Part shown: piece after piece, positions 49,185-64,000 of the stretch | Layout: the number at the start of each line of letters is the position of its first letter | How positions within the stretch are numbered: the first letter of the stretch is position 1 | NCBI RefSeq assembly: GCF_024713945.1 | Contig: NC_134677.1 | Location: 3,909,001 to 3,973,000 of the forward strand | Length of the DNA: 64,000 bases | DNA from: Dermatophagoides farinae | Lineage: Eukaryota; Arthropoda; Arachnida; Sarcoptiformes; Pyroglyphidae | Direction of reading: 5' to 3' | Made by a program: the position numbers and the translations under genes | Notes under the pieces: model-generated | Database searches by the model: none | The model's input: only the letters and a program-made list of their open reading frames with translations | What the model was told of the DNA's origin: nothing

Positions 49185-49880
49185 AAAGGGTATCGCCAAA
49201 TAGCATCAAAAATATGTCTTTTCTTCCGGTTGGTCAATCTTTTGTGGTAACTTTGGTTGTGGGGGTGAAAAAAAATTTTTGGGAGATTTTTGTACAGGAA
49301 GCTCCGCCCACTTCCGGTTAATCCGCAAAAATCACCTTTTCACATAAAATCGATTTTCACAGCCGTTGTTTGAGCGATTTTGACAGAACTTTTTTTATTA
49401 TTATTTTTTAATTAAAATTACACAAGAAAAATATAATTTGAACCTTACGAATTGAATTTTTAAGGGTGAAATATCAAAATAAAGACAAAAAATCGCTATA
49501 TTTCATAGAATACAATTGGTGAGGACTCAATTTTTTTGAATTCAAAAAGTCAATCTAAATCACTACTTAAATTCAAAACCGGAAGACGATTCGATCATGG
49601 TTGCATTTTTGAGAGCCAAAAAACAAATTATGTCCATGCCATTTTTTGTATTGCGATCACGTGATGCTGGTTCGACCAACTGAACTTGCAGTGTAACTGA
49701 CTTACAAATAATTTTTTCCTTGACATATATGATTTTTTACAAGATTAATTAAAAATGTATAGATTTTATTTTATTATTTGAAATGTAAAAAAATGAACAT
49801 TTGATAAACAAAAGATTGAAAACTAATCCCTATCACTATCAGATTCTAAAATCAAACAACGTTGTCAAAGCTTACAATCA
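49185..49880. repeat. Left inverted arm of the second transposon
   Basis: Reverse complement of the right arm, including the shared CCGGTTTTGAATTTAAGTAG-type block. The inner part extends into an inverted copy of the transposase 3' coding end (ATCAAACAACGTTGTCAAAG), with about 22 bp missing. Confidence 0.85.
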
Positions 49881-50427
49881 TGATAAAGCAATCATGCAGC
49901 AATAAAGAGACGAATATCATACACCATTTGTTTCTGCATTTATGACCTTGGTACATTTCTTAGCCATTAATTGGTCATTTTTAGATCATGTTGTTCGTTA
50001 TCTAAATAAATCAAACAAAAAGTTCCGTGTATACCAATGTCATAAATGCACACACTTAATCTTGAAATATTGATTATCTGTTGACAATGTGGTTGTGCAT
50101 TTATGACCTTGGTATACAAGGAAAAATTTGAAGATAACGAACAATTATTGATAACGAAACCCCATGTTCACCTGACATTAGCACAGATAGCTGAAAAGCA
50201 ATAAAAAATCCAATTAGAGAATTTTTGTATAAATATTCTAAGCCAGAAAAGAATCGGTGCTCAGTGTCTAACATAGTTACTAACAAACAAGGTGCTATTT
50301 TTCAACTCTATTTTTCGATATTGAACGATTTTTTTTCATCGTGAATTTTTCATCTCAAAAGTGACATATACCTGAAATTAAAATATCAAGTTAATTTTAC
50401 TAATCAATTTTGTGACAGAAAATAACC
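49881..50427. other. Transposon 5' region with nested small hairpin repeats
   Basis: A block of the form GCATTTATGACCTTGGTA occurs at about 49938 and 50098, and its inverted form lies near 50030-50047. This suggests remains of a small foldback insertion upstream of the transposase ATG. Confidence 0.45.
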
Positions 50428-52578
50428 ATGTCTGAAAGTAGTTCATCGCCAAAAAAATTAAATGAAGCCAGATGTCCAATTTGCGATTTTCGACTACGTA
50501 ATTGTTCTAATGTGGACAGGAAATTAATCAAATCTCAAGAAGATATTGACAAAGTGTTACGATTAATGAATAAGCCCGTGGAAATCGGTGATGTTCTCTG
50601 TGCCAAATGTAATAAAAAACTTTGCAAACAAATCAGTTTGGAAAAAAAACACCTTCTTCCTGATCCTGAACCATGCATTTCTTCAATGTTGACGGACATT
50701 TCGGAACGCTTTGAATCAACTTTGTGCATCAGTGATTTATCTTCGACTACAATCAATAATCAATCAATATTGGCAGATCCAACTTATGAATATACACCAA
50801 TAGTAAAAGAAATGATCGAAATGCCGTTTAGTCGACCAATAATCAGCCATTGTTACTGCTTCATTTGTTCATCAAAAAGTGATTTGAAAGATATCCCCAT
50901 TGAAGCAAGATTACAAGTTTTTTTGAAGCGGAGAATTTTGGTGCCAAAAAGAAATCGGTGTTGTAAACAACATTTAATGAATAAATGGCTTTATGAAGAT
51001 GAAATCGACAATATCAAAATCGTGTCTGATAAATGTGAACTCGAACTATCTGATATGGCAAAATTTATGGACTTATTAGCACCCGATGCTACTTCCTTCA
51101 ACTTTCAAGACAAAATAGATAAGCGTTTGATGCCACAATGTCAGCTTTACGCTCTTACGGGTCATAACTGGAAGGATATTGATCATCTACAAAGTCTTAT
51201 AACATCTATGAGAAACACCAGTAAACGAACTGTTATTCAAGCTATAGTGACATTTCTCTGCAAATTAAGGACCGGAAATGCTAATAGAGTTATTGCTGCA
51301 TTTGCTGGTTTGGATTCGGAAAGACAAGCACAATCATATATCGATTCTGTATTGAAATCTTTTGAAGATGATATTTTACCAAATCAATTTGGACTTCAAT
51401 CGATTACCAGAGATTTTATCATCAACGAGAGAACATCACCTGTGGCGAAAAAATTATTCGATTGTCAAAATCGTCTTATGATAATATGCGATGGAACTTA
51501 TATAAGACATCAAAAAAGCTCAAATAATGTATACCAAAGGAAGTCGTATTCTGGACATAAAAAAACTACATTATGCAAGCCTTTCACTATATGTACTACT
51601 GATGGATTCGTTATCGATATTCCTGGTCCATTCAATGCAAATGAAAACGATGCATCTATCTTGAAGAATATAATCGGACAAAAGAATGGTTTATCGGAGT
51701 TGCTCCAGCCTGGTGATTATTTCGTTCTAGATAGGGGATTCCGGGATGTAGTACCGATTCTGAAAAAACGTGGCTTTAATGTACTTATTCCCGCTCTGAA
51801 AGGAAAAAACAAACAGCTGACGACAAAAGAGTCAAATGAATCGCGATTGGTCACGAAAATCCGATGGGTCGTCGAAGCCGTCCATGGGGTGATTGGACAG
51901 AAATACAAACTGCTTCACAACCAGTTTCAAAATAAGTCCTTACCCAAATTAGCAACTTATTGCCGAATCGCTTGCTTCCTCCATAATAAATTCGGCAAAA
52001 AATTCAATTCTGATTCCGAAAATATGGAAGAGATAATAAACAGTATGAAATCAAGCAACGACGTAAATTCATTGGCCGAAATGGTGGAACAAGGCAGATG
52101 GAACACGAAAAGAAGCTTGTTCAAAACATTTAGCAGCGATGATGCTTTGGATTTTCCGAGAATGTCAATCAAAGAATTGAAAATATTTTTTACTGGATCA
52201 TATCAACTCTCGCAGGCAATATCGTATCTGGCTGAAATGCTGAAAGAAGATGGAACATTAAGCCTGAAATTCGCTAAAGAAAGTAACGATATTCTTCAAT
52301 GGGAAGTGCAATCCCGACACATTAATCGGAAGAAATATAAGTGCTACATAAAATATCTACCAAAATCAAATGGTCTGTCTAGCATCGTAGGCCATTGTTG
52401 CACTTGTGCCAACGGCAACCGAACCGTCGGTTGCTGTTCACATGTTGCAGCATTGATTTATCATCTTAGTTATGGAAGATATTTATCGAGAATCTTCAGA
52501 CCTGCAGAAGCTTTGACAACGTTGTTTGATTTTAACGAAGAGATGACAGTGATAGAATCTGATAGTGATAATGATTAG
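50428..52578 (+). CDS. DDE transposase with C-terminal SWIM zinc finger
   Basis: Intact 716-aa frame. The N-terminus has a Cys cluster (CPICDF..C, CAKCNKKLC) that is a likely zinc-binding region, and a second Cys/His patch (CYCFICSS). The catalytic core follows the DDE_Tnp_4 plan: IICDGTYIRH (first Asp), KPFTICTTDGFVIDIPGPF, GDYFVLDRGFRD (second Asp), and IRWVVEAVHGVIGQKYK (Glu). The C-terminus carries CCTCANGN..GCCSHVAALIY, matching the SWIM plan CxC..CxH. The last codons are acidic (ESDSDND) and lie within the inverted arm. It would act on the element's own ends. Confidence 0.85.
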   Translation: MSESSSSPKKLNEARCPICDFRLRNCSNVDRKLIKSQEDIDKVLRLMNKPVEIGDVLCAKCNKKLCKQISLEKKHLLPDPEPCISSMLTDISERFESTLCISDLSSTTINNQSILADPTYEYTPIVKEMIEMPFSRPIISHCYCFICSSKSDLKDIPIEARLQVFLKRRILVPKRNRCCKQHLMNKWLYEDEIDNIKIVSDKCELELSDMAKFMDLLAPDATSFNFQDKIDKRLMPQCQLYALTGHNWKDIDHLQSLITSMRNTSKRTVIQAIVTFLCKLRTGNANRVIAAFAGLDSERQAQSYIDSVLKSFEDDILPNQFGLQSITRDFIINERTSPVAKKLFDCQNRLMIICDGTYIRHQKSSNNVYQRKSYSGHKKTTLCKPFTICTTDGFVIDIPGPFNANENDASILKNIIGQKNGLSELLQPGDYFVLDRGFRDVVPILKKRGFNVLIPALKGKNKQLTTKESNESRLVTKIRWVVEAVHGVIGQKYKLLHNQFQNKSLPKLATYCRIACFLHNKFGKKFNSDSENMEEIINSMKSSNDVNSLAEMVEQGRWNTKRSLFKTFSSDDALDFPRMSIKELKIFFTGSYQLSQAISYLAEMLKEDGTLSLKFAKESNDILQWEVQSRHINRKKYKCYIKYLPKSNGLSSIVGHCCTCANGNRTVGCCSHVAALIYHLSYGRYLSRIFRPAEALTTLFDFNEEMTVIESDSDND

Positions 52579-53258
52579 TTTTCAATCTTTTGTATTTCAA
52601 ATGTTGCATTTTTCGTTTATCTAATGTTCAATTTTTTTACATTTCAAATAATAAAATAAAATAAAGAGATAAAATAAAATCTATACATTTTTAATTAATC
52701 TTGTAAAAAATCATATATGTCAAGGAAAAAATTATTTGTAAGTCAGTTACACTGCAAGTTCAGTTGGTCGAACCAGCATCACGTGATCGCAATACAAAAA
52801 ATGGCATGGACATAATTTGTTTTTTGGCTCTCAAAAATGCAACCATGATCGAATCGTCTTCCGGTTTTGAATTTAAGTAGTGATTTAGATTGACTTTTTG
52901 AATTCAAAAAAATTGAGTCCTCACCAATTGTATTCTATGAAATATAGCGATTTTTTGTCTTTATTTTGATATTTCACCCTTAAAAATTCAATTCGTAAGG
53001 TTCAAATTATATTTTTCTTGTGTAATTTTAATTAAAAAATAATAATAAAAAAAGTTCTGTCAAAATCGCTCAAACAACGGCTGTGAAAATCGATTTTATG
53101 TGAAAAGGTGATTTTTGCGGATTAACCGGAAGTGGGCGGAGCTTCCGGTACAAAAATCCCCCAAAAATTTTTTTTCACCCCCACAACCAAAGTTATCACA
53201 AAAGATTGACCAACCGAAGGACATGACATTATTTTAGAGCTATTTGGCGATACCCTTT
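52505..53258. repeat. Right inverted arm of the second transposon
   Basis: Begins inside the last ~25 codons of the transposase and runs to the element end at 53258. It mirrors 49185-49880. Confidence 0.85.
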
Positions 53259-53306: not shown

Positions 53307-53533
53307 AAGTTAATCAAATTGAAAACGAGGTTTATGAATATTTCCTACGTGACCTATCACATGGAACAAAATATGAAATCTTTGTTAAAACTTAAATTTT
53401 GGCCGGAAGTGGACCACAATCACAAGTAGTGCTGAAACGTACACTTGATGGAGATATACCACCTGCACAACTTCTAATTGCAAAAGGAAACCACGTCAAA
53501 TTCTATTTCATTACGATGGCATCAAGGAGATAA
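53307..53533 (+). pseudogene. Decayed fibronectin type III exon, Dscam-like
   Basis: An acceptor (TCTCTGTGCAG) is followed by a frame reading EVNQIENEVYEYFLRDLSHG, then TKYEIFVKT, an in-frame TAA at 53393-53395, then ILAGSGPQSQVVLKRTLDGD and IPPAQLL. The pattern Y-x-L-x-x-L-x-x-G-T-x-Y-E-I-x-V with GSGP..S and RTLD..PPA is that of Dscam-type FN3 domains. It lies on the same strand as the Ig cassettes, directly beside the right end of the second transposon. It is likely a relic of the constant part of a neighbouring sDscam paralogue. Confidence 0.6.
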
Positions 53534-53757
53534 TCGTAATTCGATTACAAAAAAACAAGACAAGGTTTGCTTTTAATTTAATTGTGGTATCGAATTTGAG
53601 GTTTAGATTAAATTCTAAATTTTTCATCATAATTTTCACCAAAACGCGGCGCTAATTATCTTATTGAAAACTTGATTTTGAATTTTCTGTCCAAAATACT
53701 TTTTTCGATTGTGTTACTCACATTCAATGTTTGGTTACAAGAAATTTGCCTGTGAAA
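53534..53757. other. Promoter region of cassette 1
   Basis: AT-rich spacer from the FN3 relic to the first cassette ATG, containing the GGCGCTA element at 53639-53654. Confidence 0.5.
53639..53654 (+). promoter_or_regulatory. CTCF-like promoter element, cassette 1
   Basis: CCAAAACGCGGCGCTA, 103 bp before the ATG. By hand it matches 10 of 14 positions of the CTCF core CCASYAGRKGGCRS. Confidence 0.6.
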
Positions 53758-54167
53758 ATGCTGAATTTTATTTCCAAGTTTTTCGCTTTGATCATTTTTA
53801 TTTCATCTGTTCACAGCGATGGTAAGTCTGTTTGTCAATTATTCATTGCTTCAATTAATTCAATTTTTTATCTTTTTAAATATAGAATCTCCAGTACTCG
53901 TTAAACTTTATTCAAAAAATGAACAAACCAAAGGTTCAGATCTTGTGTTGACTTGTAATGTAGCCAAAGGCAGTAAACCATTACGGTTTCAATGGTTCAA
54001 AAATGGTGTTGAATTATCCAATACTGGACGATCGACAATTGAAAATAAAGATATTTTCTCTTTTTTTACATTGAGAAATATCGATTCCAATGATGTGGGA
54101 AATTATTCCTGTGTTGTTACCAATAAATTCGGATTCGATAAACTTTGGATTCAACTAACGGTTACAG
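53758..54167 (+). CDS. sDscam-like variable cassette 1 (signal exon + Ig exon)
   Basis: Signal exon 53758-53821 (MLNFISKFFALIIFISSVHS, GTAAGT donor) and Ig exon 53886-54167, phase 1 at both ends. The Ig has LTCNVAKGS, FQWFKNG and DVGNYSCVVTNKFGFDKLW, i.e. the Cys-Trp-Cys core with a Dscam-like F-G region. The 3' donor is G|GTTTG. In known chelicerate sDscam genes, cassettes like this are used one at a time from their own promoter and spliced to shared downstream exons, giving alternative N-terminal Ig domains for homophilic cell recognition. It is close in sequence to cassette 4. Confidence 0.85.
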
Positions 54168-54199
54168 GTTTGAACAATTTATTCAATGTTTTTTATTGG

Positions 54200-54215
54200 C
54201 CAATATATGGCGCTA
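54200..54215 (+). promoter_or_regulatory. CTCF-like promoter element, cassette 2
   Basis: CCAATATATGGCGCTA preceded by TTGG; 12 of 14 core positions. It survives although the cassette behind it is damaged. Confidence 0.65.
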
Positions 54216-54328
54216 ATTTTACCATTTTGTGGGTTATAATTTTTTTTTTGTTTTGCATAAAATAATTTTACCCATGAAATGTATACTTAAGTTTAAGAGT
54301 ATGAACACACATTGTTTCTGACATAATA

Positions 54329-54692
54329 ATAATTTTATTAACGGTGATTTTTTCAACTTTTTACTTTCATTCAATTGATGCTGGTAATTCATTTGAATTT
54401 TTGTTTTCGATGTTTCTGAATAAATTTCCTGCATCTGAAATTAATCTTTCCATTAATTCATCATACATATTACCATGTTCCATTTCATCAGGATCGACAT
54501 CAATATTTTTTGAATGGTACAAAGATGATCATAAGAAATTATCTTCGACTGAATATAAAATTGTTATTTATGATACAATGTCATCGATTGTATTCAAACG
54601 TCTTAATTCAAATGATGATACCGGAACCTATACATGTAATGCCAGGAATGTTCATGGTACTGATTCGATTACAACAAAACTTGTCATACAAG
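54329..54692 (+). pseudogene. sDscam-like cassette 2, start codon and acceptor lost
   Basis: The expected signal region reads ILLTVIFSTFYFHSIDA up to a donor-like G|GTAATT at 54384, but no ATG is in frame: ATA codons occupy the expected place, and the only nearby ATG (54301) runs into TGA. No AG exists between that donor and the Ig body, where TTTCTGAAT stands in place of a normal acceptor. The Ig itself (about 54420-54692) is open and complete: LPCSISSGS, FFEWYKDD, TGTYTCNARNVHGTDS, ending CAA G|GTTTG. It resembles cassette 5. Confidence 0.65.
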
Positions 54693-54729
54693 GTTTGATT
54701 GCTATTTATTATAATCGTGATTTGCTTGA

Positions 54730-54745
54730 CCAATAGGTGGCCCTT
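54730..54745 (+). promoter_or_regulatory. CTCF-like promoter element, cassette 3
   Basis: CCAATAGGTGGCCCTT, 123 bp before the ATG; 12 of 14 core positions, including a perfect AGGTGGC. Confidence 0.65.
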
Positions 54746-54868
54746 TTAATGCATAATTTGTTTTACCAAAAATTAATTTTTTCTGGTCATCTTCATTTTT
54801 TTCTACTTGAATTGATTATCATTTTGTTGTTGTTGTGTTGTGTTGTGAAATGTTTAAAAACATTCACA

Positions 54869-55284
54869 ATGTTTAAATTGTTGCTGTTTTTCTGTATTTC
54901 ATTCACGGTTATTTATGCTTCAAAAGGTTGGAGAATTTTTTTTTCTAATTTTACGTTTCTAATGTAAATCCCTTGTTTTTCCTTCAGATGCACCTCGAAT
55001 TTCTAAATTGTTTTCAACAGAATTGAATCAATCTGAAGGATAAGTATTGAATATTCCATTTTCGGTTATCAGTGGTTGAACACCACTATCGTTCAAATGG
55101 TTTAAAAATGAACAAGAATTACTTAGACATAGAAATCCGGAATTATCATATCAGATTAAAACAGATAATTTTCTATCATTTTTTACCATTTTGAAATTGA
55201 AAGCTTCTGATTCTGGAAATTATTCCTGTATCGTAGGCAATCAGTTTGGAATCGATATTCAATGGACATTGCTTCAAGTGAAAG
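54869..55284 (+). pseudogene. sDscam-like cassette 3, Ig exon with two nonsense codons
   Basis: Signal exon 54869-54926 (MFKLLLFFCISFTVIYASK, weak donor GTTGGAG) and Ig exon 54988-55284. The Ig frame carries TAA after NQSEG and TGA after FSVISG. The first Ig Cys is replaced by Phe (NIPFSV where relatives have a Cys). The rest is well kept: FKWFKNEQ, SDSGNYSCIVGNQFGIDIQW, LLQVKG. Both stops look like single changes of a TCA codon. It resembles cassette 6. Confidence 0.75.
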
Positions 55285-55334
55285 GTAGTTGTTTGTTTTT
55301 CCGTTTGTTTGTTTGTTTTTGATCATGTTTTCGG

Positions 55335-55350
55335 CCAAAACGCGGCGCTA
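55335..55350 (+). promoter_or_regulatory. CTCF-like promoter element, cassette 4
   Basis: CCAAAACGCGGCGCTA, identical to the cassette 1 element and preceded by CGG; 113 bp before the ATG. Confidence 0.6.
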
Positions 55351-55463
55351 TTGATTCAGTTTTAAATCATTAATTTTTTTATCTAAATTTACCATTGTTT
55401 GAGTGTTTTCACATAATGCTGTCTCTTTCTGTTCATCATAATAATCATAAAGCATTTTTCAAA

Positions 55464-55905
55464 ATGTTTTGTCGGTTTAGTGGTGGTATCATTTTAAAAT
55501 GGTGTATTCAAATCATCATTTTGTTAATATTCCACACGTTAATTATTAACGGAAATGGTAAGTTAAAATTAATTGAATTCATTTGACTTGAATTGATTTG
55601 TTTTCTCTGTTTTTTTCTACCAGAATCACCATTACTTTTGAAACAATTTGCTCATTTAAGTTCGCTAAAAGGATCAGATATAGTGTTCACTTGTAATGTG
55701 GCCAAAGGAACGAAACCTTTTCAATTCCAATGGCATAGAAATAATGTTGAACTTCGAGATCATAAACGATCCAGAATTGAATCAAAAGATATTTACTCAT
55801 TGCTGACATTGTATAACATTGATGTCGAAGACATTGGAAATTATTCATGCATTGTTACGAATCAATTTGGTTTCGATAAACTTTTGTTTCATCTAGATGT
55901 AACAG
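55464..55905 (+). CDS. sDscam-like variable cassette 4
   Basis: Signal exon 55464-55557 (MFCRFSGGIILKWC then a hydrophobic IQIIILLIFHTLII; GTAAGT donor) and Ig exon 55624-55905. The Ig has FTCNVAKGTKPFQFQWHRNN and DIGNYSCIVTNQFGFDK, ending VTG with donor GTTTGC. It shares length (282 bp) and many residues with the cassette 1 Ig, consistent with block duplication of cassettes 1-3. Confidence 0.85.
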
Positions 55906-55958
55906 GTTTGCATTGCATTGCATTGAATTGAATCATACATTTTGATTTGATTATTTGG

Positions 55959-55974
55959 CCAAAATATGGCGCTA
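55959..55974 (+). promoter_or_regulatory. CTCF-like promoter element, cassette 5
   Basis: CCAAAATATGGCGCTA preceded by TTGG, 94 bp before the ATG; 11 of 14 core positions. Confidence 0.62.
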
Positions 55975-56068
55975 ATTCTGCCATGTTTTTGATTGTTTTT
56001 TGAAAATTGAAACATCAACACATATTGTGTATTTGTGATTTAATATTGTCCATTCTAGATTGATTGTA

Positions 56069-56497
56069 ATGATGGCTATAAGAATTTTTTTGTTTTGTTT
56101 TATATTTTTACCATTTTTCATTGCTATTGATTCGGGTAATTTAAATAATTTTTCTGTTGGATTTCATTGATTAATATTCAAAAATTTTTTTTTTCGCTAG
56201 CTAAACCATCGGTAATGCAATTGCCATCTGAAATTCGACTTAGAGAAAATGTTTCTTATATGTTTCAATGTCATGTCATATCGGATTCTAAACCAATATA
56301 CTTCGAATGGCTGAAAGATAATCATCCACTCGTAGCCACTAGCCATTCGTTGTTGTCTGAATATAAAATTGACCATTATGAAACATGGTCAACATTAACA
56401 TTTAAACGTTTGATGATAAACGATATGGCAACATATACATGTCGTGTTAAAAACGTTGAAGGCATTGATACTACTAGCACTAAGCTCATTATACAAG
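56069..56497 (+). CDS. sDscam-like variable cassette 5
   Basis: Signal exon 56069-56135 (MMAIRIFLFCFIFLPFFIAI, GTAATT donor) and Ig exon 56201-56497. The Ig begins AKPSVMQLPSEIRL and has FQCHVISDSKPIYFEWLKDN and MATYTCRVKNVEGIDT, ending LIIQG with donor GTTTGT. It is the intact relative of cassette 2 (same TYTC..N.xG.D and LxIQG pattern). Confidence 0.85.
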
Positions 56498-56578
56498 GTT
56501 TGTATACCATAATCAAGGTGGTGGTTGGTTTTCCAATAATCAAGTGTTAAAATATTTCATCATCGTATTTATTACAAA

Positions 56579-56594
56579 CCAATAGTTGGCGCCT
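56579..56594 (+). promoter_or_regulatory. CTCF-like promoter element, cassette 6
   Basis: CCAATAGTTGGCGCCT, 109 bp before the ATG; 12 of 14 core positions. Confidence 0.62.
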
Positions 56595-56703
56595 TTGGTG
56601 TGTTCAATTTCAATTTTTCTATTCTAGCTTGCTGATTGATTTTAGTTTAGTTGCCTTCTATCTCACTCGTCATATTGAGATTCCAATCAAGAATTGTGCA
56701 AAA

Positions 56704-57064
56704 ATGAATTGTGTCTTGAAATTGTTGATTTTATGTCTTTCAATTTATACCAACATTCTTGATGCATCATCAAATGATGTACCAATTATTTCCAAAATAG
56801 TTTCAACACATATGAGTCAATCACAAGGCTCCATGTTGAATATAATGTGTCCAATTTCTACTGGTTCACAACTGATTACATTTAAATGGTTCAAAAATAA
56901 CATTGAAATTAAACATGAAAATCATCATGTATCGATTGAGAATAAACCTTCGTTTTCTGTGTTGATGATACAGGAATTAGAACCGGATGATTCGGGAAAT
57001 TATTCTTGTGTGGCCAGCAATCCATTCGGTATTGATGTTCAATGGACATTGCTTCAAGTTAAAG
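56704..57064 (+). CDS. sDscam-like variable cassette 6, intronless
   Basis: One continuous exon. The signal MNCVLKLLILCLSIYTNILD runs straight into ASSNDVPIISK and the Ig (IMCPISTGS, FKWFKNN, DSGNYSCVASNPFGIDVQW, LLQVKG), ending with donor GTATCT in phase 1. The junction SSN-D-VP corresponds exactly to where relatives have the 5' intron (G|AT..CC), so the intron has been lost precisely. It is the intact relative of cassette 3. Confidence 0.82.
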
Positions 57065-57087
57065 GTATCTTATTTTTGTTATTCGAA

Positions 57088-57103
57088 TATACGGATGGCG
57101 CTC
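57088..57103 (+). promoter_or_regulatory. CTCF-like promoter element, cassette 7 (weak)
   Basis: TATACGGATGGCGCTC, 136 bp before the ATG; keeps GATGGCGCT but lacks the CCA half (9 of 14). Confidence 0.4.
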
Positions 57104-57239
57104 GTAATGCTAGATTTTTGAAATTTTTATTTTGATAATTTTTTTTTCTCGCTGTTGAATCGTGTGATTTGGTTGTAGAAGTTAAAGAAAAGAGTGATTG
57201 CCTGTCATTCATTTCATCGAATAAAAACATAATCAAACA

Positions 57240-57674
57240 ATGGCATCAATTTCAAATTTTATTATCAGTGTCATTATTTTGTTTTTATTATCGTCAGATT
57301 CGATTGAAACAAGTAAATTTGTTTTTCTTTGTTTATATTACTACTTCTGAGTTTTTTCAATTTAATTTTGATTATATTTAAATCAGGTCCTTCACCACCA
57401 AAATTATTTGATCTACCAAAACGTATTGAATTGCAAGAAAATTTCGATTATACAGTGGCTTGTAATCTTGTTTCAGGCATAAAGCCAGTGATGTTTTATT
57501 GGTCAAAAAATGGTCATAAAATTTCTGAAAAACAATTTCAAATAGATCAAAGTAGCCATTCCTTTACGTCGTTGATATTAAAAGAGATAAAACGTAATGA
57601 TTCTGGAACGTTTACGTGTACGGCACAGAATCAATATGGTATTGATTCAACTTCGACCGAATTATTCGTTCAAG
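57240..57674 (+). CDS. sDscam-like variable cassette 7
   Basis: Signal exon 57240-57312 (MASISNFIISVIILFLLSS, donor A|GTAAAT) and Ig exon 57387-57674. The Ig has VACNLVSGIKPVMFYWSKNG and DSGTFTCTAQNQYGIDSTS, ending FVQG with donor GTTTGC. It is more diverged than cassettes 1-6, and its C-terminal pattern (STSTELFVQ) resembles cassette 5. Confidence 0.83.
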
Positions 57675-57776
57675 GTTTGCATTTCGTTATTTCTAGTTAC
57701 ACATGAAACGAAAATTCTATTTGTTCATTTTACTGATGTGTATGTGTCTTTTCATCATTATTAATGAACTTATAGA

Positions 57777-57792
57777 TTCATTGATGGCGCTA
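57777..57792 (+). promoter_or_regulatory. CTCF-like promoter element, cassette 8 (weak)
   Basis: TTCATTGATGGCGCTA, 113 bp before the ATG; 9 of 14 core positions, 3' half intact. Confidence 0.42.
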
Positions 57793-57905
57793 AATTTCTT
57801 TAGTTACAAAAATAAGAAGCAGCCATATGAATGATTCTAGAATCACGTATTTGTATTCATTCTTTGTTCATTCGTTGATCGTGAAAGACTTGTTGTGTTT
57901 GAACC

Positions 57906-58281
57906 ATGGCTTTATTTTCCGTCAATATTTCTCTGATTATTTTTGTATTCATTTTAACTTTGGTTTTTGCTAATCAAAATCGACCTGAACTTATAAAATC
58001 ACAATCAAATTATCAAAGTCAACCGGTTGGTTCATTGCTTGTGCTAATATGTAATTCCATTAAAGGATCAAAACCATTAGAATTCAGATGGTTAAAAAAT
58101 GGTCATGATATTGAAAAAAATTCACATCGCTTTGATATGGATCGTTATTCTATTGAAAAAAAGAACTCATATTCACAACTAACCATTAATGATGTTTCTA
58201 TCTTGGATTCTGGAAACTATTCATGTGTAGTTAATAATGCATTTGGCCTGGATTCACAATGGTCACAATTTGATGTTAAAG
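57906..58281 (+). CDS. sDscam-like variable cassette 8, intronless
   Basis: Single exon. The signal MALFSVNISLIIFVFILTLV (FA) continues directly into NQNRPELIKSQ and an Ig with LICNSIKGSKPLEFRWLKNG and DSGNYSCVVNNAFGLDSQW, ending FDVKG with donor GTTTGC. There are no GT..AG signals between signal and Ig. A good ATG context (ACCATGG) supports the start. Confidence 0.83.
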
Positions 58282-58502
58282 GTTTGCAATTAATCCAATG
58301 ATCATTTCATTACTTGCAAAATTCTATTGATTTTATTGGTTTTTTCTTTATCAATTTTATTTCAATCAATAATTTCATGGTTGATCAAACAACAACGTTT
58401 TCGGAAATGATATGACCGGAAACAATTTTTTAAGTTTGACCCAGAAACAAACAAATTAACATACAATGAGATTATGAATGTAGCCGTTTCATTCTTTTTT
58501 CA

Positions 58503-58518
58503 CCAAAAGGTTGCGCTT
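58503..58518 (+). promoter_or_regulatory. CTCF-like promoter element, cassette 9
   Basis: CCAAAAGGTTGCGCTT, 133 bp before the ATG; 11 of 14 core positions, with GG changed to TG in the GGCGC core. Confidence 0.5.
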
Positions 58519-58651
58519 ATATCATCATCATTTGTTTGATTTATAAATTTTTTGTCCGAAAAATATCGATGGCAATTCTTTTTGCACATTTCATATCAAT
58601 CGTCAATTCATTTGTTGTCTTTTGATTTCTTTGTGTATTTGTGTTTTAACA

Positions 58652-59071
58652 ATGTTTCGGCCATTCATTTTGATCGTTTTTGTTTTTTTGGCGATTCAAA
58701 ACTTTGTGATTGCTAATGGTAAGCTTTTCGAATTGTTGTTTCTGCGTGACGTACTTATCCAATCTTTTTTTCCAAAAAAATAGATGCTCCTCGTTTGCTT
58801 GAATTTAAAAGTTTATACGGACAACCCGTGAATTCTAGATTTATTTTGACATGTAACAAAATGAATGGAGTAGCACCATTGAAATTTTTTTGGACCAAAA
58901 ATGGTCACTCCATTTCACAATCGCCGGATCCACGAATCAAAATTGATGTTGATGATGATTTTTCAATGATTACCATTAAAAATATTCAAATTGATGATGC
59001 AGGAAATTATTCTTGTACCGTACAGAATCGTTTCGGTATCGATTCACAATGGTCGTTGCTTCAAGTTAAAG
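58652..59071 (+). CDS. sDscam-like variable cassette 9
   Basis: Signal exon 58652-58718 (MFRPFILIVFVFLAIQNFVI, GTAAGC donor) and Ig exon 58784-59071. The Ig begins DAPRLLEFKS and has LTCNKMNGVAPLKFFWTKNG and DAGNYSCTVQNRFGIDSQW, ending LLQVKG with donor GTTTGA. Confidence 0.85.
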
Positions 59072-59110
59072 GTTTGAAACCTACTTATTTTTTTCTGTTC
59101 ATATTTTCCA

Positions 59111-59126
59111 CCAAAACATGGCGCTA
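59111..59126 (+). promoter_or_regulatory. CTCF-like promoter element, cassette 10
   Basis: CCAAAACATGGCGCTA, 119 bp before the ATG; 11 of 14 core positions. Confidence 0.6.
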
Positions 59127-59245
59127 AATTTGTTGTTGTGAAAATTTTGTTTTTACTGTGTTTTTCTTTCGGTTTCATTCATTATTTCATTGCAAAAAAA
59201 ATCTATTGTGAATCATCGGAAATGTTTTTTTTCCATTTCTCAATA

Positions 59246-59647
59246 ATGTTTCGAATATTTATTTTGTTAATTTTTTTCATCTCATTTGGACTTGCTCAAG
59301 GTAATGTTTATTTTCGATTAATGAATCTGCGAAATTTGAAATTAATTTTTTTTATCCCTTAGATCCGCCTAAAATTAATAAAAATGTCATCGTTAATGTT
59401 GAACCAATTGCAAATACGTTTCAACTGTTGAGTTGTAGTCTAATATCTGGTTCTGAACCCATATTTTTTACTTGGTTTAAAGATGATCAGCCTCTTCATG
59501 AAACGAACAATTTGAAAATTGAAATTAATCAACAATTTTCCCTCCTGAAGATTCAAACACCAAGCATAAATGATTCTGGTCGTTATACATGCCAAGTCCG
59601 TAATGCTTATGGAACTGATAGCATGATTTTTCGATTTAATGTAAAAG
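59246..59647 (+). CDS. sDscam-like variable cassette 10
   Basis: Signal exon 59246-59300 (MFRIFILLIFFISFGLAQ, GTAATG donor; another in-frame ATG lies 24 nt upstream) and Ig exon 59363-59647. The Ig begins DPPKINKNVI and has LSCSLISGSEPIFFTWFKDD and DSGRYTCQVRNAYGTDS, ending FNVKG with donor GTTCAT. Confidence 0.84.
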
Positions 59648-59685
59648 GTTCATTTTTTTATGTTTCATTGAGTTTTTATTCGTGG

Positions 59686-59701
59686 TCAAAACGTGTCGCT
59701 A
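59686..59701 (+). promoter_or_regulatory. CTCF-like promoter element, cassette 11 (weak)
   Basis: TCAAAACGTGTCGCTA, 103 bp before the ATG; 9 of 14 core positions. Confidence 0.42.
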
Positions 59702-59804
59702 TTTGTTTAAAATTAGTTTGTCGATTTTTTTCAAATCAATTTTTTGCTTGTTTATCAACATTTTGTTTCAATCGTTTAAATCCAACCAAGCAGTGTTGCT
59801 CAAA

Positions 59805-60194
59805 ATGTTGTTTTTAATTTTCTTGTGTTTTACGTTAAATTTCGTCGTCGCAGGTTTGTTTTAAAATATTTTTTTTCAACAAAAAAATTTCTAAACTCTA
59901 TTTTTCTCTCATTAGATGAACCCAAATTGGTTCCGCTGCAACAACGTTCTGAACTTGTAGATAAATCTACTTTTTCTGTACTCTGTAGTTTAGCATCCGG
60001 TTCTTCAGTATTTTTTGAATGGATAAAAGATGGTCATAAATTATCTACAAACGGAAATATTCGTATCGATAATATCGATCATTATTCAGTGCTATCCATT
60101 ACAAATCTAACCATCACTGATTCGGGCATTTATGAGTGTATTGCCAAAAATACATATGGAAGTACATCGACATCCACACAACTTGTAATCAAAG
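59805..60194 (+). CDS. sDscam-like variable cassette 11
   Basis: Signal exon 59805-59853 (MLFLIFLCFTLNFVVA, donor GTTTGT) and Ig exon 59916-60194. The Ig begins DEPKLVPLQQ and has VLCSLASGSSVFFEWIKDG and DSGIYECIAKNTYGSTS, ending LVIKG with donor GTTGAT. It is close to cassette 12: both start DEPKL and share ECIAKNxYGS. Confidence 0.84.
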
Positions 60195-60237
60195 GTTGAT
60201 GAATGTTTTCGATCATTTTGATTATTTATATTTTTGG

Positions 60238-60253
60238 TTAAAAGTTGGCGCCA
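60238..60253 (+). promoter_or_regulatory. CTCF-like promoter element, cassette 12
   Basis: TTAAAAGTTGGCGCCA, 118 bp before the ATG; 9 of 14 core positions. Confidence 0.42.
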
Positions 60254-60371
60254 TTGTTGATCATTATGGATAAGGTTTTTTTGTTGTTGTTGGTGTTGCT
60301 TGAATTCCAAATTCATTTAGTTCATTCAGGTTGTTGTTCAATTGCTGTTTTCAGTTCATTTCATTGATAAA

Positions 60372-60777
60372 ATGCATCTTTTCAATATTTTTGTTCATAT
60401 TCTTTACATTAGTCAAATAATATCCACTGTCCTTTCAGGTATTTTGGAATGATGAACATTCCAATTTTCTATTTTGAATTTTTTTTTACTTTCAGACGAA
60501 CCAAAATTAGCACCATTTCAAAAAATTGTTGAATTCTTGGAAAATTCAACATACCTATTGACTTGTAATCTATTTTCCGGTACTAAACCAATTTTCTTTG
60601 AATGGAATAAAAATGGACAAAAATTTTCCGGAACAACAAATGTTCGTATGGAAAATACGAATCATTACTCATTACTAACGATGACCGGTCTAACTTCTGC
60701 CGATTCGGGAAATTATGAATGTATTGCTAAAAATGCATATGGAAGTGCTTCGACAACCACACAATTTGTTATAAAAG
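60372..60777 (+). CDS. sDscam-like variable cassette 12
   Basis: Signal exon 60372-60438 (MHLFNIFVHILYISQIISTV, donor GTATTT) and Ig exon 60496-60777. The Ig begins DEPKLAPFQK and has LTCNLFSGTKPIFFEWNKNG and DSGNYECIAKNAYGSAS, ending FVIKG with donor GTTTGA. It is a tandem duplicate of cassette 11 by similarity. Confidence 0.85.
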
Positions 60778-60817
60778 GTTTGACAAAATCAATGTCGATC
60801 AATGAAACTATGTTGAA

Positions 60818-60833
60818 TTCATAGTTGGCGCTA
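60818..60833 (+). promoter_or_regulatory. CTCF-like promoter element, cassette 13 (weak)
   Basis: TTCATAGTTGGCGCTA, 91-103 bp before the two candidate ATGs; 9 of 14 core positions. Confidence 0.42.
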
Positions 60834-60924
60834 TTGTTGCTTATTTTGAATTTTTTTAGCCATTCTAAATTCTATACTTTCATTAGTCAATTTTCAGTCT
60901 TTGAAATTTTTTCAATCTTAACAC

Positions 60925-61276
60925 ATGAATGACAAAATGTTTTTCTTTAAATTTTTTACATTTTTCTCCATAATTTCCATTACCATTTCGGATCCACCGA
61001 AATTATTGCCATTTAATGTTGATCTTCAAGAATTGGTTGAAAACATTACATATCCATTAACGTGTGTGTTGATCAGTGGTTCGAAACCAATATTTTTCGA
61101 TTGGTATCGAAACGATGAAAAAGTCGCTGAACGATTGAATGTAAAAATTGATAATCAAGATCGAATCTCGTTGCTTTCTCTTACAAATGTTCAAACAAGT
61201 GATAGTGGAAAATATGAGTGTTATGCTAAAAATCAATTTGGTCAAGATTCGATTGTTACTAATATTTTGGTTAAAG
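60925..61276 (+). CDS. sDscam-like variable cassette 13, intronless
   Basis: Single exon. The signal MNDKMFFFKFFTFFSIISIT (IS) runs directly into DPPKLLPFNV and an Ig with LTCVLISGSKPIFFDWYRND and DSGKYECYAKNQFGQDS, ending LVKG with donor GTTTGA. ATG codons at 60925 and 60937 are both possible. The DPP start of the Ig matches the intron position of its relatives, so the intron was lost without changing the frame. Confidence 0.83.
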
Positions 61277-61352
61277 GTTTGATTATTTGTTCTACATTCA
61301 AACGCTATTTGGTAGAAAAAAATTTTTATCTTTCATAACCTAACATTGATGA

Positions 61353-61437
61353 CAAATGCACATTCTTAACTATTATACATGTTTGGTACAAAATTCAATC
61401 GGATCAGATAGACAAACAACAATGCTTGTTGTTAAAG
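61353..61437 (+). pseudogene. sDscam-like cassette 14, truncated Ig relic
   Basis: Only the end of an Ig domain remains: NYYTCLVQNSIGSDRQTTML, then VVK and a phase-1 donor G|GTTCGA. A stop lies just upstream, and there is no signal exon and no promoter element. Confidence 0.7.
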
Positions 61438-61738
61438 GTTCGATAGTTTTAGTAATTTAAATCATTTGTGTGTTATCATATTATCATTAAAAAAATATAA
61501 TATCCTAACCATGTTCTTCACCGATTGATACATTTGATACGACAGTATGTAGTATCTTCGATTCATATTACAATCGATGTATGGCGCCTTGTGTTTCAGC
61601 ATTTGTTTGTTCCTGTTCATTTTTTTAATGCGTTTTTTTCTCGGTTGAATTTTGTACGCTTAGTTTTGCAATTCATTTCGATTTGTAGTTGTTGTTGTTG
61701 TTGTTATTTTGGTTTTTTCATATTTCTTACATTCCATC
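61438..61738. other. Promoter spacer of cassette 15
   Basis: AT-rich with a GTT repeat near 61687-61705. It holds the GGCGC element at 61574-61589 and nothing else recognisable. The long open frame crossing this region includes the signal intron and is not in frame with the Ig by normal splicing. Confidence 0.5.
61574..61589 (+). promoter_or_regulatory. CTCF-like promoter element, cassette 15 (weak)
   Basis: TCGATGTATGGCGCCT, 149 bp before the ATG; 9 of 14 core positions. Confidence 0.4.
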
Positions 61739-62212
61739 ATGTTCCATCGCATATTTGTCATCATTTTACTTCTCTTTTTGTTACTACCCGATCGGTTATT
61801 GTCCGAGCTTCTTTTTCATCATCAAGGTATGTTTTGATTGGAATTTCTTTTAATCACGAATCATTTTTATTTTCATTTATTTTTCTTCATCTATTTATTT
61901 CCATCTCTTTTTTGATAGCACCCAAGCTAGCGGAAAATATTCACAATCAAACATTATTGATTGGATCCAAATTCAAATTCTTTTGCTATCTTCAATCATC
62001 CGGCAGTAGACCATTGCACTTTGAATGGCTAAAAGATGGACAAATATTACGACATTATGGCGATAAGCTAACATCGTATACGATTTCAACTACCGAAGAT
62101 GATACACTATTTTCAATTGATAAAATTAGATTGAATGATACAGGCAGCTATACATGCCTTGTTCGTAATAGTTATGGCAGTGATTCAAAAACTATTTCAT
62201 TAACGGTCAAAG
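61739..62212 (+). CDS. sDscam-like variable cassette 15
   Basis: Signal exon 61739-61826 (MFHRIFVIILLLFLLLPDRL, GTATGT donor) and Ig exon 61919-62212. The Ig begins APKLAENIHN and has FFCYLQSSGSRPLHFEWLKD and DTGSYTCLVRNSYGSDS, ending TVKG with donor GTATAT. Its start (SKFKFFCY) resembles cassette 17 (HKFKLFCY), suggesting a separate subgroup at this end of the array. Confidence 0.84.
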
Positions 62213-62434
62213 GTATATTCAGTTTTGAATCTGAATTCTTGTGTGTTCTTTTTTTCAAAATCAAATTTGAATGATTCTGTAGTTTGATTTATCGTTGGTC
62301 ATGATGTAAAAAATTTTGTTCATATTTTTTCTGCCGCTTTTTTTCATTCGTTTAGCATAATTTTTTGCAACCAGACAGGTAAAAGCTCAAGACGATCTGT
62401 CAACTACTAACATCTCATTGGTTTTGTTAAATAG

Positions 62435-62695
62435 CTTCTCGATTGGTTGCTTTTAGATCCAGTCAATCGCAGATGAATGAAACGAAATTCAAACATTGGT
62501 GTACAACACAATACGGAAAAAAACCATTATCATTCAAGTGGCGAAAAAATGATAAAGTTCTTTCATCAAGCAATGACCAATAACAACATCTTTATCATAT
62601 AGACATTGTTACGTATGAATCTGTTTTGACCATTACTTATTCCTGTCAAGTCTATAGTCATTTTGGTTGGGAAATTCAATTTACAGTGCTTACTA
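62435..62695 (+). pseudogene. sDscam-like cassette 16, degenerate Ig
   Basis: After an acceptor (AAATAG), the frame reads ASRLVAFRSSQSQMNETKF, then KPLSFKWRKND, then an in-frame TAA after SSSNDQ. Further on, LTIT joins directly to YSCQVYSHFG, so the usual DxG segment between them is deleted. No phase-1 donor, no signal ATG and no promoter element are visible. Confidence 0.7.
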
Positions 62696-63171
62696 TACAC
62701 TATATTAGCTATATTGTTGTGCGAATGTTGATAGTTACATCCGAATAAATCGAATTTCTTCGGGACAAGCTTTAGCTTCTTGTTTATATATGTCTATGTA
62801 ACTTTCAATTGCATGCAATTAGCATTAGTGACGACAAATGAGCCTCATTCGAATTGCTCTCTATTCATTTGGAATTGATGATTTGTTAGACTTCCGGAAT
62901 GTAATTAGCTATTACATGGATATCGATTGAAATTCAATCAATGAATAGATTCTATGTCAAAGAAGTAGTAGTAGCAATTGTAGCATGATCTATTTGAATT
63001 TCTTATTCATTTCACAAGTATCATCTCTTGTAAAGATTAATAATATCGACCAAAGTGTGGCAGCATTTTTATTCGTATAGAAATGTTGAATTATTTTTTC
63101 TTTGTGGTGTGATTCTATAAGAGATGTTTACTTTATTATTGAATGTTAATGTAATCTGTAACTGTTCCATT
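62696..63171. other. Spacer between cassettes 16 and 17
   Basis: AT-rich with no supported coding signal apart from the promoter element of cassette 17 and an upstream in-frame ATG at 63124. Confidence 0.5.
63050..63065 (+). promoter_or_regulatory. CTCF-like promoter element, cassette 17
   Basis: CCAAAGTGTGGCAGCA preceded by CGA, 106 bp before the preferred ATG; 10 of 14 core positions, with GTGGCAG in place of GGCGC. Confidence 0.5.
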
Positions 63172-63523
63172 ATGTATTTGATGATTATTTCAATCATTTT
63201 ATCTTCATTCATATCTTTCATATCATGTACATCAGTACCTTCGCTTGGTCATTTCAAACCTAGTGAATCATTAAATGTTGGCCACAAATTTAAATTATTT
63301 TGCTATCCATTAGCCGGTGTTCCTCAATTCCAATTTGAGTGGTTTAAAAATGGTCATCCACTTTCATCATCGCCGTCGAATAATCATTACATTATCGAAG
63401 AGATCAATGACGCGTCATTGTTTACAATCGAAACACTTCAACAAAATGACTCAGGAAATTATTCCTGTCGGGTACGAAACCGTTTTGGTCATGATATTCA
63501 ATCGACTAGACTTGAAATCAAAG
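63172..63523 (+). CDS. sDscam-like variable cassette 17, intronless
   Basis: Single exon. The signal MYLMIISIILSSFISFISC runs into TSVPSLGHFK and an Ig with LFCYPLAGVPQFQFEWFKNG and DSGNYSCRVRNRFGHDIQS, ending EIKG with donor GTTTGA. The frame is open from an earlier ATG at 63124. I prefer 63172 because it starts the hydrophobic signal and restores the ~100-bp spacing to the promoter element seen in the other cassettes. Confidence 0.82.
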
Positions 63524-63983
63524 GTTTGACAACATTTTTTTTGTTTGCTTTATTTTCATTTTTTGTTCGAAATTTTTTTGAATATTTTCATCATCTTATT
63601 GAGAAAGATTTCGATTTTCAAATCTCGACCTACCTCTATGTGTATACATGTTATTCGTTGATCGAATAGCTTTATAAATAGCTTGTAGGACTTTATTGCT
63701 TCATTCATCATGTATCAATATGGCTTTTTTTTTCTTTCAATTTAATATCGGTCACGTTGCTCCGGAAATTACTTTCCACACAAGACTTGCATACTATTAT
63801 GAATGTTCATTCATTCATACATTCTCTGCAATATGAGTGTGTGTCTGTGTTTGGTTGTCAAAAAAATAGGTAAATTGCTTTTGCGTTTGATTTTCTTACA
63901 CTAAGATGGATGGATAGATGTGTGTAGATAGATAAATAGATTGATCTACGTTTGGTTATTTGTTTGTTTATTATGGTTCATAT
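63524..63983. other. Spacer after cassette 17
   Basis: AT-rich with short GT and GATA runs. No Ig exon or signal peptide found. Confidence 0.5.
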
Positions 63984-64000
63984 CCAAAACGCGGCGTCTA
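63984..64000 (+). promoter_or_regulatory. CTCF-like promoter element at window end
   Basis: CCAAAACGCGGCGTCTA, nearly the same as the elements of cassettes 1 and 4 but with one extra T. It predicts another cassette within ~150 bp beyond the window. Confidence 0.55.

Follow-up and report, generated by a model that had tools for sequence, protein, structure and literature searches.

The DNA analysed here, the window, is a stretch of 64,000 nucleotides of the dust mite Dermatophagoides farinae (NC_134677.1, chromosome C1:3909001-3973000), and its last part, at 53639-64000, covers the variable region at the 5′ side of a shortened Dscam (sDscam) gene of the chelicerate type, a gene for alternative cell-recognition proteins. 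From 53.6 kb onward cassettes are arranged in tandem, most of them consisting of a signal exon, which is hydrophobic, and an immunoglobulin (Ig) exon, and nearly all spacers carry a short conserved element on the coding strand. The 3′ half of this element has a specific RNA partner, namely a complementary word in the intron behind the last cassette, whereas the 5′ half has none and sits where the CCA of a CTCF site should be. Judged from these sequence comparisons, there is about an even chance that the elements are RNA selectors, and this reading is ranked first; binding of the genome-folding protein CTCF, alone or in addition, is ranked second and is put forward only tentatively.

The Element in the Cassette Spacers

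Beyond the window the cassettes are followed by constant Ig and FN3 exons, and the Dscam FN3 model PF25059 is matched above its cut-off. The gene has the sDscam-alpha layout, that is, tandem signal-Ig cassettes at the 5′ side, followed by constant Ig domains and Dscam FN3 domains, as in passages of PMC4835542 and PMC5775551. In addition, there are two paralogous clusters, B at C1:8127-8137 kb (+) and C at C1:8208-8216 kb (-), and the cluster of the window is called A. An earlier sequence-only reading of the window had described its elements as CTCF-like; the cassettes A14 and A16 and the damaged unit A15 of the present text are its cassettes 15 and 17 and its unit 16, respectively.

The spacers of the three clusters number 48 (18 in A, 17 in B and 13 in C), of which 28 are non-redundant. 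Unsupervised motif discovery, which the sequence-only reading had proposed as a check, gave gaCCAAaAnaTGGCGCTAA from the 28 spacers with a score of 246, compared with 83-90 for six shuffled sets, which were searched more lightly (30 starts rather than 60 and 30 iterations rather than 40); a search of both strands together gave gaCCAAaAnaTGGCGCTAA again. A coding-strand element is present in 44 of the 48 spacers, 40 being found by scan and four (A7, B10, C1 and C2) being placed by hand. No coding-strand element was found in A15, which is damaged, and in A18, B17 and C13, which include the last intron of each cluster together with a constant Ig exon. Leave-one-out profiles over the 48 spacers recovered 40 at p <= 0.005 and failed with A7, A15, A18, B10, B17, C1, C2 and C13. 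In 23 non-redundant spacers (C1 and C2 are excluded for their different spelling, and A15, A18 and B17 are without a site), the motif columns average 1.09 bits and the flanks 0.19-0.20. No footprint was found between orthologous cassettes of different clusters, because the whole spacers are about 88% identical (element 0.908, spacer 0.879). The uniform orientation of the elements is explained by tandem duplication.

All sixteen elements which had been claimed in the window are indeed there, all on the + strand, and a motif scan lists fifteen of them, that is, all except A7. The leave-one-out profile also finds 15 of the 16 (shuffle p <= 0.005) and misses A7 (p 0.145, with the best site elsewhere). 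Cluster A thus has an element in 16 of its 18 spacers, with none in A15 (damaged) or A18 (constant Ig). The claim that the truncated units 14 and 16 lack the element holds for unit 16 (A15), but for unit 14 there is no separate spacer, as it lies within spacer A14. The exact word GGCGCTA occurs seven times in the window, always on the + strand and inside the cluster, while 100 shuffles gave a mean of 0.47 and a maximum of 2; three further GGCGCTA words not far away, at C1:1932-1940 kb, are without a motif match of more than 8 bits.

The Proposed Docking Word and Its Predicted Pairing with the Elements

The last intron, which separates the final cassette from the first constant exon, is about 100 nucleotides long. 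It contains AGCGCCA in cluster A (C1:3973549-3973555) and AGTGCCA in clusters B (C1:8136199-8136205) and C (C1:8209162-8209168, minus strand). One candidate docking word, AGYGCCA, thus stands in the intron beside the constant exon at an aligned place in all three clusters, its index behind the last cassette exon being 23 in A, 20 in B and 20 in C (20-24 nt), and it is complementary to the core of the element. Among the 48 spacers the word occurs in four, the three last introns and the one before C1. What the sequences show directly is that the cores and their complementary word are conserved, and where both lie; pairing in the cell and the choice of a cassette by that pairing are inferred from this.

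The mean pairing energy of the elements with the last intron is -12.4, -13.5 and -12.2 kcal/mol in A, B and C, respectively, and dinucleotide-shuffled introns were as strong in 0, 1 and 4 of 300 cases when one intron shuffle was applied to all elements together. Control 19-mers from the spacers gave -7.3 to -7.8 kcal/mol with the last intron, and the elements gave -8.5 to -9.4 kcal/mol with the stretches after the other cassettes. With the 3′ half of the element alone and the first 104 nt, 0, 3 and 3 of 300 shuffles were as strong. Pairing is complete (7/7) in 24 of the 44 elements and at least 6/7 in 41, and the C/U difference between the docking words of A and B preserves the pair. A7, A8, A13 and B10, which do not qualify as CTCF sites, all pair 7/7. 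The poor pairers are A16 (4/7), A17 (5/7) and C1 (4/7). A16 follows the damaged A15 and C1 is the first in its cluster, so neither would need a selector; before C1 the usual family form of the element is absent.

The following mechanism may be proposed. In the long pre-mRNA, the core UGGCGCU would lie a few tens of bases behind the splice donor of a cassette and would pair with the docking word of the last intron, AGCGCCA in A and AGUGCCA in B and C; the pairing would place the donor of one cassette beside the acceptor of the constant exon and shut out the other cassettes. According to passages of Yue 2016, splicing to the constant exon is possible for downstream as well as cap-proximal sDscam cassettes, and a selector device would serve such splicing. 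The RNA reading would also agree with the view of Cao 2018 that the regulation of sDscam is distinct from that of Pcdh.

The sixteen elements of the window, all on the + strand, are as follows. Complete pairing with the last-intron word is seen between cassettes 1 and 2 (54200..54215, CCAATATATGGCGCTA), 4 and 5 (55959..55974, CCAAAATATGGCGCTA) and 9 and 10 (59111..59126, CCAAAACATGGCGCTA), and pairing of 6/7 between cassettes 2 and 3 (54730..54745, CCAATAGGTGGCCCTT), 3 and 4 (55335..55350, CCAAAACGCGGCGCTA), 5 and 6 (56579..56594, CCAATAGTTGGCGCCT), 8 and 9 (58503..58518, CCAAAAGGTTGCGCTT), 10 and 11 (59686..59701, TCAAAACGTGTCGCTA) and 11 and 12 (60238..60253, TTAAAAGTTGGCGCCA); these nine elements are supported by both CTCF matrix comparison and the leave-one-out profile, and the element before cassette 1 (A1; 53639..53654, CCAAAACGCGGCGCTA) by these two and the spacer scan. 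Complete pairing is also seen in the elements between cassettes 7 and 8 (A8; 57777..57792, TTCATTGATGGCGCTA) and 12 and 13 (A13; 60818..60833, TTCATAGTTGGCGCTA), which are found by leave-one-out and have negative CTCF matrix scores, and in the one between 6 and 7 (A7; 57088..57103, TATACGGATGGCGCTC), which has the 3′ half only and, failing in leave-one-out, was placed by hand. The remaining three are recovered by leave-one-out, and lie before A14 (61574..61589, TCGATGTATGGCGCCT, p 0.005, 6/7), before A16 and after the damaged A15 (63050..63065, CCAAAGTGTGGCAGCA, CTCF-compatible, only 4/7) and before A17, the Ig exon of which lies past the window (63984..63999, CCAAAACGCGGCGTCT, 5/7).

The Position of the Elements

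The elements of cluster A had been placed 91-149 bp before the ATG; the measured distance of the core is close to this, 101-156 bp (mean 123, standard deviation (sd) 15, in 14 cassettes with a clear ATG). In cluster A the elements are also close behind the preceding cassette, at 23-102 bp in 11 of 15 cases. Over the 34 elements measured in the clusters, the distance from the previous exon has a mean of 43 bp (sd 19) in 30, the rest being the long spacers A9, B12, A14 and A16, and the distance to the ATG has a mean of 132 bp in all 34. The A17 element, 460 bp behind the previous exon and without a clear ATG, is outside the 34. The elements before A1 and B1 do not decide between the two sides, because both cassettes are orthologs of internal ones (A1 of B4 and C6) and their elements can therefore be leftovers of lost neighbours. 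Similarly, the absence of the element from all three last introns fits the RNA and the CTCF readings alike.

RNA Selectors, CTCF Sites and Other Possible Explanations

Several observations weigh against RNA selectors. The distance to the ATG (sd 13) is steadier than that from the exon to the element (sd 77, n = 34), chiefly through the four long spacers, without which the values are 11 and 19 (n = 30); these long spacers favour a tie of the element to the promoter. The 5′ half of the element does not pair (116, 69 and 50 of 300 shuffles as strong over 104 nt in A, B and C) and is conserved nonetheless, with 0.84 bits against at most 0.33 in flank windows. The stem common to the elements is short, at about 7 bp. 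Pairing of whole spacers (443-573 nt, the constant Ig exon included) was not significant (4, 3 and 5 of 40). Covariation amounts to the single C/U change in the docking word, none being seen in the elements, and B and C are not independent because their last introns are nearly identical. Furthermore, A17 pairs only 5/7 though the preceding unit is intact, which the RNA reading does not account for, and the A16 site is compatible with CTCF but pairs badly. The match of the motif to the vertebrate CTCF matrix is strong. Since pairing explains neither the conserved CCAAAA half nor the steady distance to the ATG, the element may well have another function at the DNA level, and CTCF binding is a possible one.

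It is possible, at clearly less than an even chance, that CTCF binds the element close to the promoter, with or without an RNA role besides, and that the CTCF of the mite selects or insulates the promoters as in the clustered protocadherins; its candidate sites would then lie about 100-156 bp upstream of the ATG of each cassette. The conserved 5′ half that does not pair and the steady distance to the ATG would be accounted for in this way. The matches of the sixteen elements to the CTCF core CCASYAGRKGGCRS, claimed to be 9-12 of 14, were reproduced in every case with a mean of 10.1, while the best match anywhere in shuffled spacers had a mean of 8.7 and a maximum of 9.3, and none of 200 shuffles equalled the elements. 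The alignment of the motif with the vertebrate CTCF matrix scores 12.8, and 2000 permutations of the columns of either matrix gave at most 10.6; this permutation tests CTCF alone, a factor picked after the fact from many known ones, which tells against the identification. With this matrix the element is recovered at p <= 0.015 in 28 of the 48 spacers and missed in 20, four of which are element-free. In addition, the motif recurs in clusters B and C, and the sites of C1 (15.5 bits) and C2 (12.8 bits), which are in the normal position, are of the CTCF type, but C2 also pairs 7/7. CTCF reads one triplet per finger. A CTCF gene, which the sequence-only reading had asked about, is encoded in the genome, with 11 fingers; fingers 3-5 keep 12 of 12 contacts of the human protein, finger 6 one of four and finger 7 two of four, and fingers 3-7 are those which read the core according to a part of PMC10325916. 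CTCF-like words are enriched in the genome of 62,435,336 bases, CAVYAGRTGGCGCY occurring 33 times against 1 control and HNNNNAGRTGGCGC 339 times against 34. A purine at position 8 is found in 20 of the 23 non-redundant elements. Position 4 is A in all 23, and among the first 100 listed of the 339 HNNNNAGRTGGCGC words A is found there in 61% and C at position 2 in 39%. However, G at position 7 is present in only 9 of the 23 and lacking in 14, while genome words with this G number 86 (CANNAGRTGGCGC) against 4 reversed controls; those without it number 43 against 14 controls, 13 of the 43 being sDscam copies and 30 lying outside, though a base other than G is several-fold commoner by composition. 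Because the genomic words need G at position 7 and most elements lack it, the cassettes are commonly spelled in another way than the CTCF-like words of the genome. The form CCAWWANNYGGCGCT is nearly private to sDscam (27 against 0 controls; the clusters account for 15, copied fragments for 8 and other places for 4).

A reading of the element as a DNA-binding site does not predict that its 3′ half is complementary to a last-intron word in three clusters. Nor was a convergent downstream partner for CTCF established: in the 58 kb after cluster A, matrix matches of at least 12 bits number five on the - strand and one on the + strand, and the docking words are not convergent CTCF sites, because their reverse strands score -13.6, -15.8 and -14.9 bits. 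The CTCF-like interpretation of the sequence-only reading is upheld in part, by the matrix match, the two further clusters and the CTCF gene, and is weakened by the spelling of position 7 and the complementarity to the last intron. It is quite unlikely that another DNA-binding promoter factor reads the element, since the complementary intron word would again not be predicted, although the conserved 5′ half, the steady distance to the ATG and the sDscam-specific spelling would all suit it. That the element is a duplicated leftover without function is very improbable: the cassettes are paralogous and the element is barely more conserved than its spacer between clusters (0.908 versus 0.879), but the contrast between motif and flanks in the 23 non-redundant spacers speaks against it. 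As named candidates, YY1/Pho, E2F, CArG and NFI do not fit, their cores occurring in 9 (ATGGC), 0, 0 and 0 of the 23 elements, respectively.

Ig Exons and Neighbourhood of the Clusters

The Ig exons of cluster A in the window, all on the + strand, are exon 1 (53888..54166), exon 2 of a damaged unit (54416..54691), exons 3 (54990..55283), 4 (55626..55904), 5 (56203..56496), 6 (56779..57063), 7 (57395..57673), 8 (57984..58280), 9 (58786..59070), 10 (59365..59646), 11 (59918..60193), 12 (60498..60776) and 13 (60994..61275), A14 (61921..62211), the damaged unit A15 (62431..62697), the spacer of which is without an element, and A16 (63235..63522), which matches Pfam I-set. In four cassettes, at 56704-57063, 57906-58280, 60937-61275 and 63172-63522, one open frame spans the signal peptide and the Ig domain, as if the intron between them had been lost.

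Immediately 5′ of cassette 1, at 53312-53545, there is a broken FN3 exon which resembles the cluster C constant region by 83% and may be what is left of a former sDscam neighbour. The segment 53256-55706 of the window, comprising this FN3 remnant, the first three cassettes and the beginning of cassette 4, is copied on three other chromosomes with about 93-99% identity, at C2:5249437-5251926, C3:3931024-3933476 and, with a gap, C4:3731651-3733864. Both flanks of these three copies are themselves copies of the repeat sequence at 47.5-49.2 kb of the window, as if a mobile repeat had captured part of cluster A. A DDE_Tnp_4 transposon occupies 49185-53258, with an open reading frame at 50428-52578 and inverted ends of 590 bp which are 98% alike, and it is missing at the corresponding junction in all three copies.

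Clusters B and C have long inverted stretches in common, 94-97% alike (C1:8126.8-8139.7 kb and C1:8205.6-8214.9 kb), and between them lie CTCF-matrix sites of 18.5 and 15.8 bits, at C1:8167656 and C1:8192466. Three more CTCF-like sites, C1:8124328 (+), C1:8215896 (+) and C1:8218388 (-), are near the 5′ edges of B and C and are unattached to any detected cassette; the first two have an AGATGG core with G at position 7, and all three are possible boundary sites. As for a methylation machinery, a feature of promoter choice of the protocadherin type, the DNA_methylase model PF00145 was matched at two loci of the genome, a match that implies neither type nor activity.

Comparison with Known Systems and Significance

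In vertebrate clustered protocadherins, the choice of promoter is based on CTCF. The sDscam cluster resembles them in its tandem alternative first units, each with one forward CTCF-type sequence near the promoter, and differs from them in that G at position 7 is mostly missing, reverse enhancer sites are not established and there is no second site in the exon. In mouse Pcdh-alpha a second CTCF site lies in the variable exon, as stated in part of PMC7087399, while none was called in the Ig exons here, save one weak opposite-strand match of 9.3 bits in cluster C. In the exon 4 cluster of insect Dscam1, according to passages of PMC8042237, a docking site lies behind the last variable exon and selectors lie behind each variable exon. 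The present cluster is similar in its single docking word after the last variable unit and in its complementary sequences after the variable units, but here the alternatives are first cassettes, the stem measures no more than about 7 bp, and conservation extends to an additional 5′ half that does not pair. A study by Hou in 2022 deals, to judge by its title, with RNA pairing in sDscam, which is reported to aid splicing; the gene family is the same, and the cluster described here is of the sDscam-alpha type and comes from a dust mite. In the accessible text of the sDscam papers PMC4835542, PMC5775551 and PMC10154414 the word CTCF appears 0, 1 (in a reference) and 0 times, respectively; subscription journals are outside this scope, and the count is weak evidence of absence from print.

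It is unlikely, but worth stating, that the one element carries two codes, in which case it would be read by CTCF as DNA in picking the promoter and would be paired with the docking word as RNA in picking the splice donor. If this were true, the unit transcribed first and the unit spliced would be set by one sequence, and the strategies of the protocadherins and of insect Dscam would be combined in one chelicerate gene. The sDscam genes stand between insect Dscam1, with its RNA pairing, and the vertebrate protocadherins, with their promoter choice by CTCF, and the cluster yields an explicit prediction for each system, a word of 7 nucleotides with its complement for the one and a CTCF-like site for the other. 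Whichever reading holds, it would reveal the strategy of a chelicerate, and both together would be new.

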